NCBI GenBank assembly: GCA_021299095.1
Contig: JAJTFW010000005.1
Coordinates: 1 to 60,459, forward strand
Direction of reading: 5' to 3'
DNA: 60,459 nucleotides
DNA from: Sphingobacteriales bacterium
GTDB lineage: Bacteria; Bacteroidota; Bacteroidia; AKYH767-A; OLB10
This document shows positions 3,830-12,594 of the stretch, one piece after another. Within the stretch, counting starts at the first letter, position 1. Every line of letters begins with the position of its first letter. The notes under the pieces are model-generated. The model was not told where the DNA came from and searched no databases. It saw only the letters and a list, made by a program, of their open reading frames with translations. Made by a program: the position numbers and the translations under genes.

Positions 3830-6800
3830 TTAGTGTGTGACAATCATCCGTTTTGTGATCTGTTGACCCTCATACATGAAGGTGTATTGATACATACCGG
3901 GCGCGAGCGTAGAGGTGTTAACCTGTACGGTATGCTTTCCGGCAGCCATAGATCCATCTGCAAGCACGGCAACTACTTGTCCAATCAAATCGGTCATTAC
4001 GATTCGAACTTGACCTTGAGCAGGAATCATGTACTCAAGTGTGGTTGAAGCGTCGGCAGGGTTCGGGTAGTTCTGGCTTATGCCAAGATTATTCACAGCG
4101 AAGTCATCCAGACCGATCACATCGCAAGTTCCTAGGTCTTCGAAACATACGTCATCGATTGACCAGCCCTCATCGTTGGCACTGTAATCAGAAGCGAACC
4201 TCCAGCGTACAATCAACTGGGCATCTGCATCAGGACGGATAATCTTCTCATGGTAAATCCAGGATGCGCGTGAACCGGTGAAGCCCTTGAGACCAGGGTT
4301 GGACGGGTCAAGTTCAGAAACATAAGTGTAGTTCGGACTGGTGCCATACAACACGATGTTCGGTGTGCCAAGGAAGTCAACCCGTTCCCAATTCTGACCA
4401 TAATCAACCGAGTAGTCAACAGCGCCACCGTCCGATCCGTATTCCATCAGGAAGCGGTGGTGGAAGCTCAGCTTGTAGCAATGTCCGGGCTGAACACGGA
4501 ACAGGGAAGAGAAGAGACCGGAAGAATCTTTCTCCGGATAAGTACCGCTGAGTTTGGTAGTCCATGCGGTACTACCGGTGCGTGCTCCGTTCAGGGTCGG
4601 CTTGGCGGGTGTTCCAATTTCCCAGCTGCTTTCGTTTCGGTAAGAAATAGCATTGGCTGTTACCCACTGGCTTCCTGTTTCGAAGCTCGTGCAGAAGGGC
4701 AGCTGACTGGTTGCTACAGAGTCAAACACAAGGACAGTCACGCAGGCTGTGTCATCCGGAGTGAACAGGTCGGTTGAGCCGTTCGGGCTATCGGTGTACA
4801 CACATACTTCGTGGAATCCAGGAACAGCAATCCAGGTGTTATTGAAGTTGTGCGTCTGGCTGCTGTCAGGTGCAAGGCCATTGGGTGAGTAGATGATCGG
4901 ATCACTGGAAACGATACCTCCATCAATGGTGAGCGTAGCATTGTGGTTGAACACCGTGTTCACACCGTTGTTTTTAATCGGTGCAGCGAACGTGATTGGT
5001 TGTCCAGGGAAGATCAGTTGGTTCGGAACAGAGGTGTTCACAGAAAGCGTTGTGACAGACAGCGGAATCGGAACAAAGATTTCGAAATTGTCTACTGACG
5101 CTCCGTCAGAATTGGTGAAGTTGACGGACGTATACACAAAGCGGAATTGTACGATGCCGTTACCCACAACGGAGTAAACATCCTTGAAGATCGACTGGAT
5201 CCAGAGTCCGGTGTTGTCATCCCAACTATCGTTGTTGTTATACCAGTTGGTGACTGGCTGGGTGGTAGGAGTAAGCAGGGTCCAAGCGCCGCCATTCACT
5301 GAGTACTCAATGTACAATTTATCGCCAAATGCGTTCATCACGCGATTCTGCCAGAACTTCAGCGTTGCAGCCTGTGCATTGGCGAAATCGAAGAATGGTG
5401 TTGTTACATAGGCGTTTGCACCACCGGTCACACCGGTGTTCAAGTTAACGTCCCAGCAATTCGGAGCCGTGTAGGCACCGCTGGTTCCACCGAAGTTTGG
5501 TGTACCGAATTCCCAGACAGTGGTATTGGTTCCTCCTGGATTTACTCCCGGAGCCCAACCGATGTTTCCATTGTCGAAGTTATCGTCGTAGCTGGCAATG
5601 TAAGTCGGAGCCAGGATAGGCTGGCCAATCACATCAGCACAGCTTGTATCGTTTGCCGGAATCTGGTCGGTTGCCAGGGATGTCCAAGAGCAAATGGTGT
5701 TCGGACCCTGTGCGAAGGTGTAGTTCGGAAGAACAACCGATACCTGTCCGCAGGGAGGCAGGCTTCCTGTCCAGTTGATGGTGATTGGTGTGCCTCCGTT
5801 GACTGAATAACTGATCGGTGTTGAAGTGATTGTGGTTGCACCGTAGTTTTCCAGGGTAACGATGACCGGCTGTGCTACGCCCACCGGAACTCCGCCAACG
5901 GGAGAAGTGATAGCTGAAATTCCAACATCATCACCGGATGCTGCGTAGATGCAGAAGTCGTCGATTGAAACACCATCGCGCAACACGCTGGGGTCAGAGG
6001 TGAAAACGAAGCGGAACTGGACCGGCGTCGGGTTGAAGAAGATGCCGTTCGTGCAGCAAAGTTTGTAAGAGGTGGGTAACCAACCTGTACCACTATTCGC
6101 GAGACCAGTCCAGCCGGGCAATTGGCTCGACAACAAAATATCATCGTTATACCAATTGGATCCGCAAGGATCTTGGTTTGCAGGGTTGGTGCTACCTGAA
6201 CCGAGAATAACCCACGTTGTTCCTCCGTTAACCGTGTACTCCAAGCGTGTTCCATCCCAGTTGTTTTCTGCGTAGTAGTTCATCATGAACGACAGGCGCG
6301 CAGAACCGATGGAAGAGAAGTCGAAGTACGGCGTGTAGAGTTGAGCATTGGCATTGTTTGTATACACTGTGCTCAGGTTGATATCCCAGGCGTTATTGCC
6401 CGAAAATGCCGAGCTGGTAGACTGGAATGCGGGTGTACCGAGTTCCCAAACTGTTCCAGGATCACCATTGGGGCCAAGCTGAGCTGACCAACCGATGTTT
6501 CCGGACTCGAAGTCGTCGCAGTAGAATGGAGACGGTGTAAGGGTGGGAATACCGATGAAAGAACCGCAGACAGTGTCGTTCAGTCCGATGCAGTCGTTAG
6601 GTAGTTCAGACCATACGCACACGGTGTAGCTGTTGCTGGGCACGGTGAAGGTTGGCAAAGTAGCCTGTCCGACCGTTCCAGCCGCCAGTGTGCCGGGGTA
6701 AGTGATTGGAGCTTGCGTAACACCGTTGATAGACCACTGGATCGGGAAGTTGCTTTGATCAAGTTGACCGAAGTTCTCGAGTCCGACAGTGATTTGTGAG

Positions 6801-8416
6801 CTGCTGCCTGCAGGTTGTCCGCTTCCTGCGGGAGGGGAGAGAAATGATGTAACACCTACATCGTCGTTACAGGGAATGGTGATGCAGAAGTCGTCCAGGT
6901 GGAATCCGGCATCTTGAACGGAAGGATCCGAGGTGAAAACATACCGGAACTGAACACTGGTTGATCCGGCAAGGCCAGCAACGGTTCCCAACTTATACTT
7001 TGACTCGACCCATCCGTTTGAAGTTCCGTCCCACGCAAAGGTGTTACTGGAGTTGATGGCATCATCGGTGTACCAGTTGAGGCCATTTGGGTCAGGATTG
7101 GCAGTCGTTCCGGAACCAACAGTAGTCCATGAACTTCCACCGTTGGTGCTGAATTCCAGTCGCACACCATCCCACGAAGCTTCAACATCACGGTTTTGCC
7201 AGAATGAAAGGTTAGCTACCGATACAGTGGAGAAGTCGAACACCGGTGAAAGCAAATACGAAATGGTATTGGGTGCATATGCAGGTGTGGAATTGATTTC
7301 TCCTACACCCCATACGTTCACAGGTGAATGAGCCGAATTCAGGACTGCACCTGTAGGAATACCGCGTGTCCAACCTGTGCCTGTACTGTCATCTGCTGTC
7401 CAGAGGTCATTCTGGATTTCAAAGTTGTCGCAGAAGGGGAAGGTAATTCCGGAAACAGGATAAAAACAGATTTCTCCGTTCGCGGGGTAACGAACGAAGT
7501 TGTTACAACCGGACGCGTCATACGCTTCAAACCACCAGCAAATGGTGTCTCCATCGTTGGCGGCGGGCAATTGACCGGAGAACAGTGAATCCACGATCTG
7601 GAAAAGAAAATCTTGCTGCACAGGACCACCATTAACCGTGTAGTAGAGATCGGCGAAGCCGGGTCCGAGAATTGCTGACTGAATACCGCTTGGGTCGTTG
7701 ATGTATACATCCAGCGGGAATGGTCCCAGGTTGAAAATCGTACCCTGCCAAAGCGGAGAACCGGTTGCAGGAGCAGAGGCTGTTGGGGGAATCAACTCAC
7801 AGGGAGCTCCTTTTACGCAGAGGTTGTCAAGCAGCCAGCCGTAGCGGCCATTGAGACCGAGAATCACATCGGTCATCACGAAGCGAAGCTGGACACTGGC
7901 TTGGTTGCCACAAACACCTGAGATGTCGAATTTCTCATTCTTCCACCAGGTGTTCAGTGGGGCGGTGGGTGTACCGGGAAACCAATCCGGATAAGAAGCT
8001 TCGGTGAACGAGTTTGCGTTGAAGGCAAAGTTTCCAGTCCCCTGATAGTCGATTGAGGGAGGGTTGTCGCTAAAGTCAACCCAAGTTGCACCGCCATCGA
8101 TGGTGTACTGGATTCGAGCCGCATCCGTGAATTCGATCTTACAGATCTGGTCGAATTCAACGGTGACGAAATTTAGGCCGATTGTACTGAAAACGGGCGA
8201 GGTGAGATACACTGGTCCGCCACTCGCTTGGTACTGTCCCCGGTAACAATTTGGAGCACTGACCGAGTAATTGTTGTCAATTGCCCAGCCCGGAGTACCG
8301 GTGGACGTGGCATTGACGGTGGCTCCGTCGAAATTTTCGCACCACAGTTGCGTGACCTGGGCTTGTGATGTCCCGAAATACAGCAAGGCAAGCAGTGCCA
8401 GTAAACATCTTTTCAT
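3830..8416 (-). CDS. Large multidomain secreted protein with type IX sorting domain
   Basis: A 1528-residue exported protein. A Sec signal peptide (MKRCLLALLALLYFGTSQAQ) opens it; an in-frame ATG at 8458 is rejected because it would put 14 polar residues before the signal. Five similar jelly-roll modules begin near residues 24, 325, 630, 942 and 1239, each with an (F/Y)C-x-x-FE/FD motif, a W-(E)-x-GTP segment, a 'sPvFDFS' strand, 'WDG.RLEYSTNGG..W' and a final 'DD.C' strand, a pattern like MAM/concanavalin-type binding modules. CARDB-like spacers (DDVGVTS, DDVGISA) occur near 517 and 829. The last ~85 residues are a type A sorting domain (NYPNPA, LIGQVV, LAPGMYQYTF, KRMIVTH), so it should be exported by the type IX system and attached to the surface. 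The ligand is unknown. Confidence 0.88.
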   Translation of the reverse strand: MKRCLLALLALLYFGTSQAQVTQLWCENFDGATVNATSTGTPGWAIDNNYSVSAPNCYRGQYQASGGPVYLTSPVFSTIGLNFVTVEFDQICKIEFTDAARIQYTIDGGATWVDFSDNPPSIDYQGTGNFAFNANSFTEASYPDWFPGTPTAPLNTWWKNEKFDISGVCGNQASVQLRFVMTDVILGLNGRYGWLLDNLCVKGAPCELIPPTASAPATGSPLWQGTIFNLGPFPLDVYINDPSGIQSAILGPGFADLYYTVNGGPVQQDFLFQIVDSLFSGQLPAANDGDTICWWFEAYDASGCNNFVRYPANGEICFYPVSGITFPFCDNFEIQNDLWTADDSTGTGWTRGIPTGAVLNSAHSPVNVWGVGEINSTPAYAPNTISYLLSPVFDFSTVSVANLSFWQNRDVEASWDGVRLEFSTNGGSSWTTVGSGTTANPDPNGLNWYTDDAINSSNTFAWDGTSNGWVESKYKLGTVAGLAGSTSVQFRYVFTSDPSVQDAGFHLDDFCITIPCNDDVGVTSFLSPPAGSGQPAGSSSQITVGLENFGQLDQSNFPIQWSINGVTQAPITYPGTLAAGTVGQATLPTFTVPSNSYTVCVWSELPNDCIGLNDTVCGSFIGIPTLTPSPFYCDDFESGNIGWSAQLGPNGDPGTVWELGTPAFQSTSSAFSGNNAWDINLSTVYTNNANAQLYTPYFDFSSIGSARLSFMMNYYAENNWDGTRLEYTVNGGTTWVILGSGSTNPANQDPCGSNWYNDDILLSSQLPGWTGLANSGTGWLPTSYKLCCTNGIFFNPTPVQFRFVFTSDPSVLRDGVSIDDFCIYAASGDDVGISAITSPVGGVPVGVAQPVIVTLENYGATTITSTPISYSVNGGTPITINWTGSLPPCGQVSVVLPNYTFAQGPNTICSWTSLATDQIPANDTSCADVIGQPILAPTYIASYDDNFDNGNIGWAPGVNPGGTNTTVWEFGTPNFGGTSGAYTAPNCWDVNLNTGVTGGANAYVTTPFFDFANAQAATLKFWQNRVMNAFGDKLYIEYSVNGGAWTLLTPTTQPVTNWYNNNDSWDDNTGLWIQSIFKDVYSVVGNGIVQFRFVYTSVNFTNSDGASVDNFEIFVPIPLSVTTLSVNTSVPNQLIFPGQPITFAAPIKNNGVNTVFNHNATLTIDGGIVSSDPIIYSPNGLAPDSSQTHNFNNTWIAVPGFHEVCVYTDSPNGSTDLFTPDDTACVTVLVFDSVATSQLPFCTSFETGSQWVTANAISYRNESSWEIGTPAKPTLNGARTGSTAWTTKLSGTYPEKDSSGLFSSLFRVQPGHCYKLSFHHRFLMEYGSDGGAVDYSVDYGQNWERVDFLGTPNIVLYGTSPNYTYVSELDPSNPGLKGFTGSRASWIYHEKIIRPDADAQLIVRWRFASDYSANDEGWSIDDVCFEDLGTCDVIGLDDFAVNNLGISQNYPNPADASTTLEYMIPAQGQVRIVMTDLIGQVVAVLADGSMAAGKHTVQVNTSTLAPGMYQYTFMYEGQQITKRMIVTH

Positions 8417-8468
8417 AGGATGGTTGGTTTTATTGACGCGTGTGTTAGTTTGGTTCAAGTGGAATAAT

Positions 8469-9716: not shown

Positions 9717-9761
9717 GATGTTCTCGAATAAAATCCCGGCAGATTGACTATTGGCCGGCTT

Positions 9762-9786
9762 CAAAGGTAACCATTGGTTATTTTTG
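9762..9786. promoter_or_regulatory. Divergent -7 elements for hmgA and the FAH gene
   Basis: TACCTTTG on the minus strand (9769-9762) is 45 bases before hmgA, and TATTTTTG on the plus strand (9779-9786) is 18 bases before the fumarylacetoacetate hydrolase. The boxes are nine bases apart, so the -33 region of each promoter overlaps the other promoter. A regulator bound here could control both genes, but I see no clear operator. Confidence 0.55.
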
Positions 9787-9804
9787 AAGCCTGACCAACA
9801 TCAC

Positions 9805-10824
9805 ATGAAACTGATTTCTTTCCTAAACCAAGGTGTTGAAACCCTTGGACTTTACTTAAACGAGCGGATTTACTCCGTACCCGACGCTGCAGACCGGGCC
9901 GGACGAGCTGCTGCTTCCACCATGTCCGAGTTGCTCAAAGGCGAGGAGAAGTCGATGGACGCTGTCCGTGAAATTGAGCGCTTGATTGCAGATGGGAAAG
10001 TCGAATCAGATTCCTATCTCTGGGCGGCTGTTGAAGTTCTGGCGCCCGTTCCACATCCCACATCCTGCCGAGACGGATATGCTTTTCGACAGCACGTTGA
10101 AGCGGCTCGCAGAAACAGACGTGTGGAGATGATTCCGGAGTTTGATGAATACCCGATTTTCTATTTCACCAACCACAATGCGATTCAGGGGCCCGGAGAT
10201 ATCTGGTGTATGCCCGATCATTTTAAGCAATTGGATTTTGAGCTGGAGGCTGCTGTGGTGATTGGTAAAAAGGGGCGGAACCTGAAGGCTGAACACGCTG
10301 ATCAATACATTGCAGGCTACATGATTATGAACGACATGAGCGCCAGGGTGCTACAGATGGAGGAGATGAAGCTGAATCTGGGGCCGGCCAAAGGAAAGGA
10401 TTTTTCAACCGTGATCGGGCCCTGGTTGGTTACGCCGGATGAATTGGATGCCTATAAAGTCGGTCCAAAGCCGAATCATACCGGAAGCCGTTTCAACCTC
10501 AGTATGAAATGCTGGGTGAATGGTGTTCAGGTCAGCGAGGGAAATGTGGCCCAGATGGATTGGACATTTGCCGAAATCATTGAACGCTGCGCCTACGGAA
10601 CCGACATTCTTCCGGGTGACGTCATTGGCTCGGGAACCGTGGGAACCGGTTGCTTCCTCGAACTGAACGGAACAGGAAAACTGAATAACCCGGATTATCC
10701 GGTGCAATGGCTCCAGGATGGCGATGTAGTGGAAATGAGCATAGATGGATTGGGGTGCCTTAGGAATACCATCCGCAAAGTCGATTCGGATTTTTCGATC
10801 CTCGCTTTGAAAAAGAGTGTGTAG
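9805..10824 (+). CDS. Fumarylacetoacetate hydrolase family protein
   Basis: A 339-residue FAH-fold hydrolase, expected to split fumarylacetoacetate into fumarate and acetoacetate, the last step after homogentisate cleavage. The start MKLISFLNQGVETLGLYL fits the family; an upstream in-frame codon at 9751 is ignored because it lies before the promoter. Core motifs: YPIFYFTNHNAIQGPG, the metal-binding acidic pair in LDFELEAAVVIGKKG, the catalytic-loop region GYMIMNDMSAR, GKDFSTVIGPWLVT, and the C-terminal GDVIGSGTVGTGC. The divergent partner hmgA strongly supports this substrate over other FAH-family substrates. The stop codon lies in a 12-bp palindrome (TAGGTATACCTA, 10822-10833). Confidence 0.9.
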   Translation: MKLISFLNQGVETLGLYLNERIYSVPDAADRAGRAAASTMSELLKGEEKSMDAVREIERLIADGKVESDSYLWAAVEVLAPVPHPTSCRDGYAFRQHVEAARRNRRVEMIPEFDEYPIFYFTNHNAIQGPGDIWCMPDHFKQLDFELEAAVVIGKKGRNLKAEHADQYIAGYMIMNDMSARVLQMEEMKLNLGPAKGKDFSTVIGPWLVTPDELDAYKVGPKPNHTGSRFNLSMKCWVNGVQVSEGNVAQMDWTFAEIIERCAYGTDILPGDVIGSGTVGTGCFLELNGTGKLNNPDYPVQWLQDGDVVEMSIDGLGCLRNTIRKVDSDFSILALKKSV

Positions 10825-10844
10825 GTATACCTAAAAAGCCAGTC

Positions 10845-10966
10845 GGGATAGCCTTACGGGGCTACCCTTCCTGACATCAACCTAAACACCATAACCAATT
10901 CATTTACCCGTTGGCCTGTTGGCCTTGTGCGGGTGGTTTTTTCGGGGTCTTCGGCTTGCCAGGCTC
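10845..10966 (+). repeat. Tandem structured repeat, copy 1
   Basis: Contains TAGCC-TTACGG-GGCTA (10849-10865), an A/C-rich single-stranded-looking segment ending CATAACCAATTC at 10901, then a terminator-like hairpin. In the latter, ACCCG (10906-10910) pairs with CGGGT (10930-10934) around GGCC-TGTT-GGCC, followed by a T6 run (10937-10942). Bases 10849-10901 are identical to copy 2 over 53 positions. Confidence 0.9.
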
Positions 10967-11090
10967 GAGTAGCCTTACGGGGCTACCCTTCCTGACATCA
11001 ACCTAAACACCATAACCAATTCTTTTGCCCGTTAGCCTGGTGGTTGCAGACGGGTTATTTTATTTCGGGGGATTCCGGCTTGTCAGGCTC
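10967..11090 (+). repeat. Tandem structured repeat, copy 2
   Basis: Same order as copy 1, offset by 121 bases. The GAGTAGCC-TTACGG-GGCTACCC hairpin comes first, then the identical A/C-rich linker (to 11022), then a second hairpin CCCGT (11028-11032) / ACGGG (11050-11054) followed by TTATTTTATTT. The loop of the second hairpin differs from copy 1 while its outer stem is kept, which favours selection on structure. Confidence 0.9.
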
Positions 11091-11160
11091 GGGTAGCCTT
11101 ACGGGGCTACCCGATTCTCTGACATCAACCTAAACCAAACAAAACCCTATTTTTAACCTT
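11091..11160 (+). repeat. Tandem structured repeat, partial copy 3
   Basis: Offset by 124 bases from copy 2. Its hairpin is the strongest: CGGGTAGCC / GGCTACCCG, a nine-base perfect stem. CTGACATCAACCTAAAC is conserved, then the sequence diverges to an A-rich tract ending CCCTATTTTTAACC. The second hairpin is not conserved. Confidence 0.85.
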
Positions 11161-11362
11161 GAGAACGCTGCCAACTTAGTAACCTGCTGACATGGGGGTT
11201 GAACGGAGCTTTTTTTGAAAGGTTCCGGTTTTTAAATATTTTTTTCTGAATCACATTTAAATAATTGATTTACAGTATTATAATTTCATATTATCTTGGA
11301 TTAAATCGAATTTCCTACCCCAGTATAAAACCCAAAGGGGCTGTCAGGGGTTAGTCAGTGGC

Positions 11363-11370
11363 TAACTTTG
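11363..11370 (+). promoter_or_regulatory. -7 element TAACTTTG immediately before ribBA
   Basis: Exact TAnnTTTG, six bases before the ATG at 11377. If used, transcription would start at or next to the start codon, giving a leaderless or nearly leaderless mRNA. I see no TTG at the -33 position. Confidence 0.5.
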
Positions 11371-11376
11371 CAGACC

Positions 11377-12594
11377 ATGATCGAACACATCCGGCTAAAT
11401 ACCATTGACGAGGCGATTGAAGACATCAAAGCCGGGCGAATTATCATTGTAGTTGATGATGCTGACCGGGAAAACGAGGGTGATTTTCTGGTTGCATCCA
11501 GACATGCCACCCCTGAAGTGGTGAATTTCATGGCTACGCATGGAAGAGGGCTCATTTGTATAAGTCTCACGGATGAGCGTTGCCGAGAATTGGACTTGCC
11601 GAGTATGGTTAGTACCAATACGGCTTCGCATGAAACGGCATTCACTGTATCAGTTGACCTATTGGGTCATGGATGTACAACAGGTATTTCTGCATCGGAT
11701 CGCTCCAAAACCATTCAGGCATTGATTCATCCGGAAACAATGCCTGAAGACCTAGGTCGCCCAGGTCATATCTTTCCGCTCCGTGCAAAGTCCGGCGGAG
11801 TTTTGCGGCGCGCTGGACACACGGAAGCTGCTTCGGATTTATCCAGGCTGGCAGGATTCGAGTCCTCAGGAGTGATAGTTGAAATCATGAATGAGGACGG
11901 AAGCATGGCTCGACTGCCCGAGTTGATTCAGATTGCTTCACGCTTTGGAATGAAGATCATTTCCATCGAGGACTTGATTAAATACAGAATGGAGAAGGAG
12001 TGCGATGTGGAACGTGTCGTCTCCGTGGAAATGCCTACCGTTTATGGCGATTTTCAATTGGTTGCATTCACACACCGCGAAAGTGGACAGGAGCATTTAG
12101 CACTCGTGAAAGGGGAATGGAAGCCCGATGAGGCGGTGCTGGTACGCGTGCATTCATCCTGTATGACAGGCGATATTTTCGGTTCCTGTCGCTGCGACTG
12201 CGGTCCTCAATTGCATGCAGCTTTAAGCCGTATTGATGAGGAAGGCAAGGGGGTGCTTCTGTATATGAATCAGGAAGGACGTGGCATTGGCTTGCTCAAT
12301 AAATTGAAGGCCTACAAACTTCAGGAGCAGGGCTTCGACACGGTTGAAGCCAATTTGCAGCTTGGTTTCAGAATGGATGAGCGGGATTATGGCGTAGGTG
12401 CGCAAATTCTGCGGAGCCTTGGCATTTCGAAAATGCGACTGCTGACCAATAATCCCACCAAGCGGGCCGGCCTTACAGGCTATGGTTTGGAGATTATTGA
12501 ACGCATCCCGATCGAGGTTCCGGCAAATCCCCACAACCGCGAATATCTGGCTACCAAGCGGGATAAGATGGGGCATGCGCTCCGCGGTGAATGA
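11377..12594 (+). CDS. ribBA: Bifunctional DHBP synthase / GTP cyclohydrolase II
   Basis: A 405-residue fusion catalysing both entry reactions of riboflavin synthesis. Residues 1-~200 are 3,4-dihydroxy-2-butanone 4-phosphate synthase (RibB): [15 protein letters not shown] holds the metal-binding acidic residues, with [12 protein letters not shown] and [11 protein letters not shown]. Residues ~210-405 are GTP cyclohydrolase II (RibA): [20 protein letters not shown] carries the zinc cysteines near 263-276, followed by [13 protein letters not shown] and [11 protein letters not shown]. Length and order are those of standard RibBA. The start [10 protein letters not shown] matches the family and ATG 11377 is used; the TTG at 11368 lies inside the -7 element. 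Confidence 0.97.

Follow-up and report, generated by a model that had tools for sequence, protein, structure and literature searches.

Organization of the locus

The window analyzed here, a 60,459-nucleotide stretch of DNA from a Sphingobacteriales bacterium, contains an array of three tandem repeat units in the intergenic space between a fumarylacetoacetate-hydrolase-family gene and the vitamin B2 gene ribBA (Table 1). A preliminary description of the sequence had placed the three copies at 10849, 10970, and 11094, at spacings of 121 and 124 bases, and these positions were confirmed, as was the claim that copies 1 and 2 share 53 bases (the first 53 are identical). By chance, 0.19 occurrences of the 17-mer CTGACATCAACCTAAAC would be expected in the window, and three are present; GTAGCCTTACGGGGCTAC likewise occurs three times against an expectation of 0.00. 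Neither the 63-base core nor a covariance model of the unit has a match outside these three places in the genome (2.51 Mb, 96% complete), and the public records that match the array are uncultured Bacteroidota assemblies. The array is no CRISPR, in agreement with the preliminary description: its units of 121 to 124 nt resemble one another over most of their extent and include a conserved linker, where a CRISPR would have short identical repeats and unrelated spacers of regular length. The small open reading frames in the array region are short, and their frames are not kept from unit to unit. Elsewhere in the window, positions 3830 to 8458 of the minus strand encode a 1,542-amino-acid secreted repeat protein, the C terminus of which resembles, by eye, a type IX secretion sorting domain.

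Table 1. Coordinates of genes and of observed and predicted features at the array locus
Feature	Position	Strand	Evidence and remarks
Fumarylacetoacetate-hydrolase-family gene (variable far-end neighbor)	9751..10824	plus	NCBIfam matches below cut-off
Predicted sRNA gene, ~360 nt	10833..11196 (from ~11195 to T-run 10837-10833)	minus	Promoter-like element, terminator, covarying units between; putative transcription
Predicted intrinsic terminator	10833..10875	minus	Unit B' hairpin, then TTTTT (10837-10833); preceding stretch folds at -19.1 kcal/mol
Unit B' (recent duplicate of B)	10838..10905	minus	Hairpin 10838-10875, linker 10876-10905; model R1 match; 95% identical to B over 74 nt
Unit B	10958..11026	minus	Hairpin 10958-10996, linker 10997-11026; model R1 match
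Unit A	11082..11153	minus	Hairpin 11082-11123 (loop CCGUAA on minus), linker 11124-11153; model R1 match
Predicted ECF-sigma-like promoter GAAC-N16-CGTT	11202..11225	minus	16/22 family loci
Terminator-like site peculiar to the window	11204..11227	plus	Pattern scan, about as many expected by chance; overlaps minus-strand promoter
ribBA -7 box TAACTTTG	11363..11370	plus	TAnnTTTG; first ribBA ATG at 11377
ribBA (3,4-dihydroxy-2-butanone-4-phosphate synthase / GTP cyclohydrolase II)	11377..12594	plus	NCBIfam NF006803, 629.8 bits

Conserved structure of the units

A structural alignment of 31 units from 14 genomes of the window's family (f1) resolves a common anatomy. An outer stem (GTCAG/CTGAC or an equivalent, for example GTCTA/TAGAC) encloses an inner stem of about 8 pairs, which is capped by a fixed hexaloop (UUACGG read on the plus strand, CCGUAA on the minus strand); a conserved linker completes the unit. 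The GTAGCC/GGCTAC hairpin with its TTACGG loop, recognized in the preliminary description, belongs to this conserved double-stem hairpin; the outer stem had been missed. The A/C-rich linker is conserved as well, and it reads as G/U-rich on the minus strand, which we favor. The second hairpin of the preliminary description is present only in copies 1 and 2, with no conservation in relatives. The conserved parts of the unit are the double-stem hairpin and the linker that is A/C-rich on the plus strand.

Both sides change in 11 of the 13 pairs. Pairing is observed in 90.5% of the cells, compared with 77.5% after shuffling and 24 to 44% when the partner is slid by 1 to 3 columns, which indicates that the pairing of the units has been under selection. 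The observed covariation was reached in none of 500 shuffles on any of five measures, counts that are not probabilities because the rows of the alignment are related. The covariance modeling proposed in the preliminary description thus revealed compensatory stem changes, and both the covariation and the retention of the units across genera lend good support to the claim that a structured RNA has been duplicated here. The loop is invariant atop freely varying stems in 114 distinct hairpins; the stems mutate with compensation, while hardly any change is seen in the apical loop and the A/C-rich linker. Folding of the region has a z-score of -3.8 on the minus strand and -2.8 on the plus strand.

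Linkers that share a position are mostly more alike between genera than linkers inside one array are among themselves; the array is therefore old, and its positions are not interchangeable. The linker of unit A follows this pattern in resembling the same-position linkers of other genera. Exceptions are seen in the units of one other genome (G010) and in copies 1 and 2 of the window, which stem from a recent duplication.

Conservation of the array among relatives

Covariance model R1 detects units in 22 of 24 f1 genomes, and the array is conserved in 9 of the 10 genera of the family; among 18 other genomes of the order, the model gives weak matches only, in four of them. All 22 genomes with units have ribBA as a neighbor, with the array lying a few hundred bases upstream. 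On the far side the neighbor varies among relatives and may be the fumarylacetoacetate-hydrolase gene, other genes of the same strand, or genes of the opposite strand. The steady pairing of array and ribBA suggests that the two divergently share one control region. In one genome (G004), ribBA stands without the array, and an array is located elsewhere.

A sister family of the same order (f3) has shorter relatives of the element upstream of ribBA in nine genomes. The f3 element is also found at loci away from ribBA, for example after a pair of TonB-receptor and DUF6580 genes, which indicates that the element does not need ribBA. Three such loci (L172, L173, and L174), each following genes for a TonB receptor and a DUF6580-like protein, represent a second conserved locus of the element in f3, and cobalamin riboswitches lie at the edges of two of them. 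At four other loci (L138, L142, L143, and L167, in G037, G028, G025, and G033, respectively), the short f3 element stands in tandem, apparently with an upstream box for each copy.

Elsewhere in the phylum, arrays of 4 to 8 constant-loop hairpins have a sporadic distribution. Tandem arrays of 5 to 8 or more such hairpins were read at five loci (L260, G004:C22; L264, G032:C157; L165, G029:C30; L261, G093:C1; and L262, G193:C44), which are unrelated and belong to other genera or classes of the phylum. A further locus (L259, G001:C115) has eight hairpins with the same loop and different stems after a DUF4476-like gene, at 5154 to 5434 on the reversed locus. The window's own genome has a single terminator hairpin at C47:60585, apparently after the same kind of DUF4476-like gene, and a single CCGUAA-loop terminator hairpin after a TonB-like gene on C38 (L303 14603), an arrangement also seen in G001 (L221).

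Strand and predicted transcription signals

The minus strand of 16 of the 22 f1 loci, the window included, carries the element [G/T]AAC-N16/17-CGTT, compared with 1% of shuffles; the loci are related and hence are not independent observations. Among spacers of 8 to 25, no length besides 16/17 was found in more than one locus, and the spacing is found on the minus strand only. The sequences of the spacer diverge while its length stays, as in promoters, and the sequence of the element points to a putative ECF-sigma type. In many relatives an activator-like box, CTTACANNTGTAAG, lies 17 nt upstream of this promoter-like element, with a mean of 4.8 mismatches at the 17-nt offset, compared with 8.5 (standard deviation, 0.67) over offsets. 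The box stands to the right of the arrays and not to the left, both at ribBA and at non-ribBA loci. It is absent from the window, where it has been lost. Several relatives also have a 5' hairpin immediately after the promoter-like element, a feature that the window does not share.

The shorter version of the element in f3 has its own promoter-like element of fixed spacing, also at loci away from ribBA. In 6 of 9 f3 genomes, the CTTACANNTGTAAG box precedes a TAnn(A/T)TTG box by 40 to 41 nt, and the remaining 3 have, by eye, one-base variants of this arrangement.

A minus-strand terminator, that is, a hairpin followed by a T-run, lies at the left end of the array in 19 of 22 f1 loci and in all 9 f3 loci. 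Right-end terminators on the plus strand are less frequent, with 9 of the 22 f1 loci and 7 of the 9 f3 loci. T-run counts flanking all hairpins are nearly balanced (22 versus 17), and the asymmetry is limited to the outermost hairpins. Among non-Watson-Crick cells read on the plus strand, A.C outnumbers G.U by 22 to 11, a wobble test that favors the minus strand and is suggestive only. Two features of the window weigh against the minus strand, namely, its loss of the activator-like box and the terminator-like site on its plus strand (Table 1), as do the right-end plus-strand terminators of 9 of the 22 f1 loci.

The spacing of the promoter-like element, the terminators, and the placement of the activator-like box all favor one transcript on the minus strand. 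These elements run counter to the three separate plus-strand genes of the preliminary description, which had also seen a terminator in each second hairpin, a structure confined to copies 1 and 2; the plus strand was probably the wrong one to read, and reading the array on that strand kept the promoter-like element hidden. Sequence comparison supports the array as a structured and conserved element at a characteristic locus, as well as the promoter-like and terminator elements of the minus strand.

Candidate functions of the array

The best explanation is that the array encodes one minus-strand sRNA, divergent from ribBA, whose CCGUAA hairpins most likely bind and titrate, or scaffold, one protein; we consider the chances of this explanation evenly balanced. 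Transcription would start near 11195 from the ECF-sigma-like promoter and proceed away from ribBA. The RNA, about 360 nt long, would be made of three modules, in each of which a G/U-rich linker leads into a two-part hairpin bearing the invariant CCGUAA loop, and would end at the outermost hairpin plus five U residues. Through its repeated hairpins, the RNA would offer one RNA-binding protein several sites and may titrate or scaffold that protein, on the principle of the Csr/Rsm RNAs and with a protein other than theirs; this reading follows from the fixed loop and linker, the free stems, and the variable number of modules. Against a sponge of this kind stands the presence of the same CCGUAA loop in single terminators after protein genes, and the loop may partly be a stability feature. 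A broader proposal, which we put forward as a possibility that is less likely than not, is a Csr/Rsm-like system of the Bacteroidota, in which sRNAs with 2 to 8 CCGUAA-loop hairpins would be expressed from regulated promoters (ECF-like or CTTACANNTGTAAG-activated) and would titrate an undiscovered loop-specific RNA-binding protein.

The same minus-strand sRNA could instead act through its G/U-rich linkers, pairing with A/C-rich translation-initiation regions of mRNAs, with hairpins that only stabilize the molecule. This is unlikely as the main function and yet has several observations on its side, namely, the conserved and position-specific sequence of the linkers across genera, the 3.7- to 4.4-fold enrichment of CCTAAA, TAAACC, TTAACC, and similar words before start codons in a 600-kb sample of the window's own genome, and predicted duplexes with 450 start regions that are approximately 1.6 and 2.1 standard deviations better than those of shuffled linkers. 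However, the linkers exceed their shuffled versions by only a small margin, a strong set of targets did not emerge, and the invariant loop is left unexplained. Antisense pairing by the linkers may also operate alongside the binding of a protein.

In a less probable explanation, the hairpins of the array serve as 3' ends or insulators, halting transcription between the neighboring genes without acting in trans. Such a role would account for the outermost hairpins, which are terminators and often bidirectional ones, for the single hairpins of the same loop found after ordinary genes, and for the position of arrays after genes in G001, G093, and G398. It would not account for the T-runs that are mostly missing at the inner hairpins, and it would make superfluous the long conserved linkers, the unit types kept by position, the promoter-like element, and the activator-like box.

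We regard as improbable a structured RNA on the plus strand, whether as tandem sRNA genes or as a regulatory leader of ribBA. In its favor, the second hairpins and T-rich tails of copies 1 and 2 lie on that strand, the array is consistently ahead of ribBA on ribBA's strand, and the family does not have an FMN riboswitch. Yet the second hairpins are not conserved, the promoter-like spacing is confined to the minus strand, and the element occurs away from ribBA in the sister-family genome G035 and at other loci. In 20 of 22 loci, moreover, ribBA has a TAnnTTTG box of its own 14 to 65 nt before its first ATG and downstream of the array, so that the array is not in the leader transcribed from that promoter. 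An FMN riboswitch or ribBA leader was rejected on this ground and because RF00050 had no match in any of 61 genomes of relatives, where the positive controls matched.

Finally, a REP-type palindromic DNA repeat that is tandem here by chance, the alternative named in the preliminary description, has a negligible probability: the tandem palindromes in intergenic DNA, as in REP and BIME elements, and the hairpin arrays at other loci of some relatives recall it, but the core and covariance-model searches found no scattered copies beyond the three at a single locus in the window's genome, the loop is conserved on variable stems (the reverse of a REP), and the locus is fixed across genera, and we rejected REP/BIME on copy number and conservation pattern. 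The genome G005 contains 49 copies of CCTTACGGGG, compared with 3 of a reversed control; none of the 30 loci that were read forms a hairpin, on which ground a repeat family was rejected and which also speaks against a REP. The copies at these loci look coding.

For the single sRNA with protein-binding hairpins, a constant loop on freely evolving stems is the trace expected from a loop-specific RNA-binding protein, and the CCGUAA hairpin provides a ready bait with which to seek one. Three classical RNA-binding proteins, Hfq, ProQ, and CsrA, are reported to be missing from Bacteroides (PMC12119571).

Comparison with known RNA systems

We found no description of such an sRNA in the open-access literature. 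At the gathering score, Rfam 15 identified only a tRNA in the window and nothing relevant in relatives, and a search of the array region at E values up to 5 returned nothing but two eukaryotic chance matches. As an sRNA family that repeats constant-loop hairpins, in a phylum whose studied members lack CsrA, it has no Rfam 15 entry and looks undescribed.

Rfp11 of Flavobacterium psychrophilum is an ECF-controlled sRNA (PMC9723704), compared here by its description. FopS and GibS of Bacteroides thetaiotaomicron are bound by RbpB (PMC11697453) and offer a precedent for sRNAs of the Bacteroidota with an RNA-binding protein as partner; they also have paralogous copies, which our element has in the sister family f3. 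However, FopS consists of a single-stranded 5' stretch and one terminator hairpin, measures approximately 65 to 70 nt, and is present in many dispersed copies, whereas the array has several invariant-loop hairpins at one locus of its own genome. The binding motif of RbpB was rejected as a match, since the literature gives other sequences.

In architecture the array is close to the Csr/Rsm RNAs (CsrB/C and RsmX/Y/Z, controlled by GacA/UvrY), which are also intergenic, repeat one loop motif on several hairpins, and finish with a terminator hairpin. CsrA/RsmA (PF02599) was not found in any of 61 genomes, where the control genomes matched, and a CsrA sponge was rejected for this reason and for the absence of a GGA loop. 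The GacA box is TGTAAGN6CTTACA (PMC3171408); the CTTACANNTGTAAG box of the relatives is built from the same TGTAAG half-sites in another arrangement (CTTACA-N2-TGTAAG), and the window has no such box. The array thus resembles the Csr/Rsm RNAs in plan and differs from them in its loop, which is CCGUAA instead of GGA, and in the promoter of the f1 family, which looks ECF-like.
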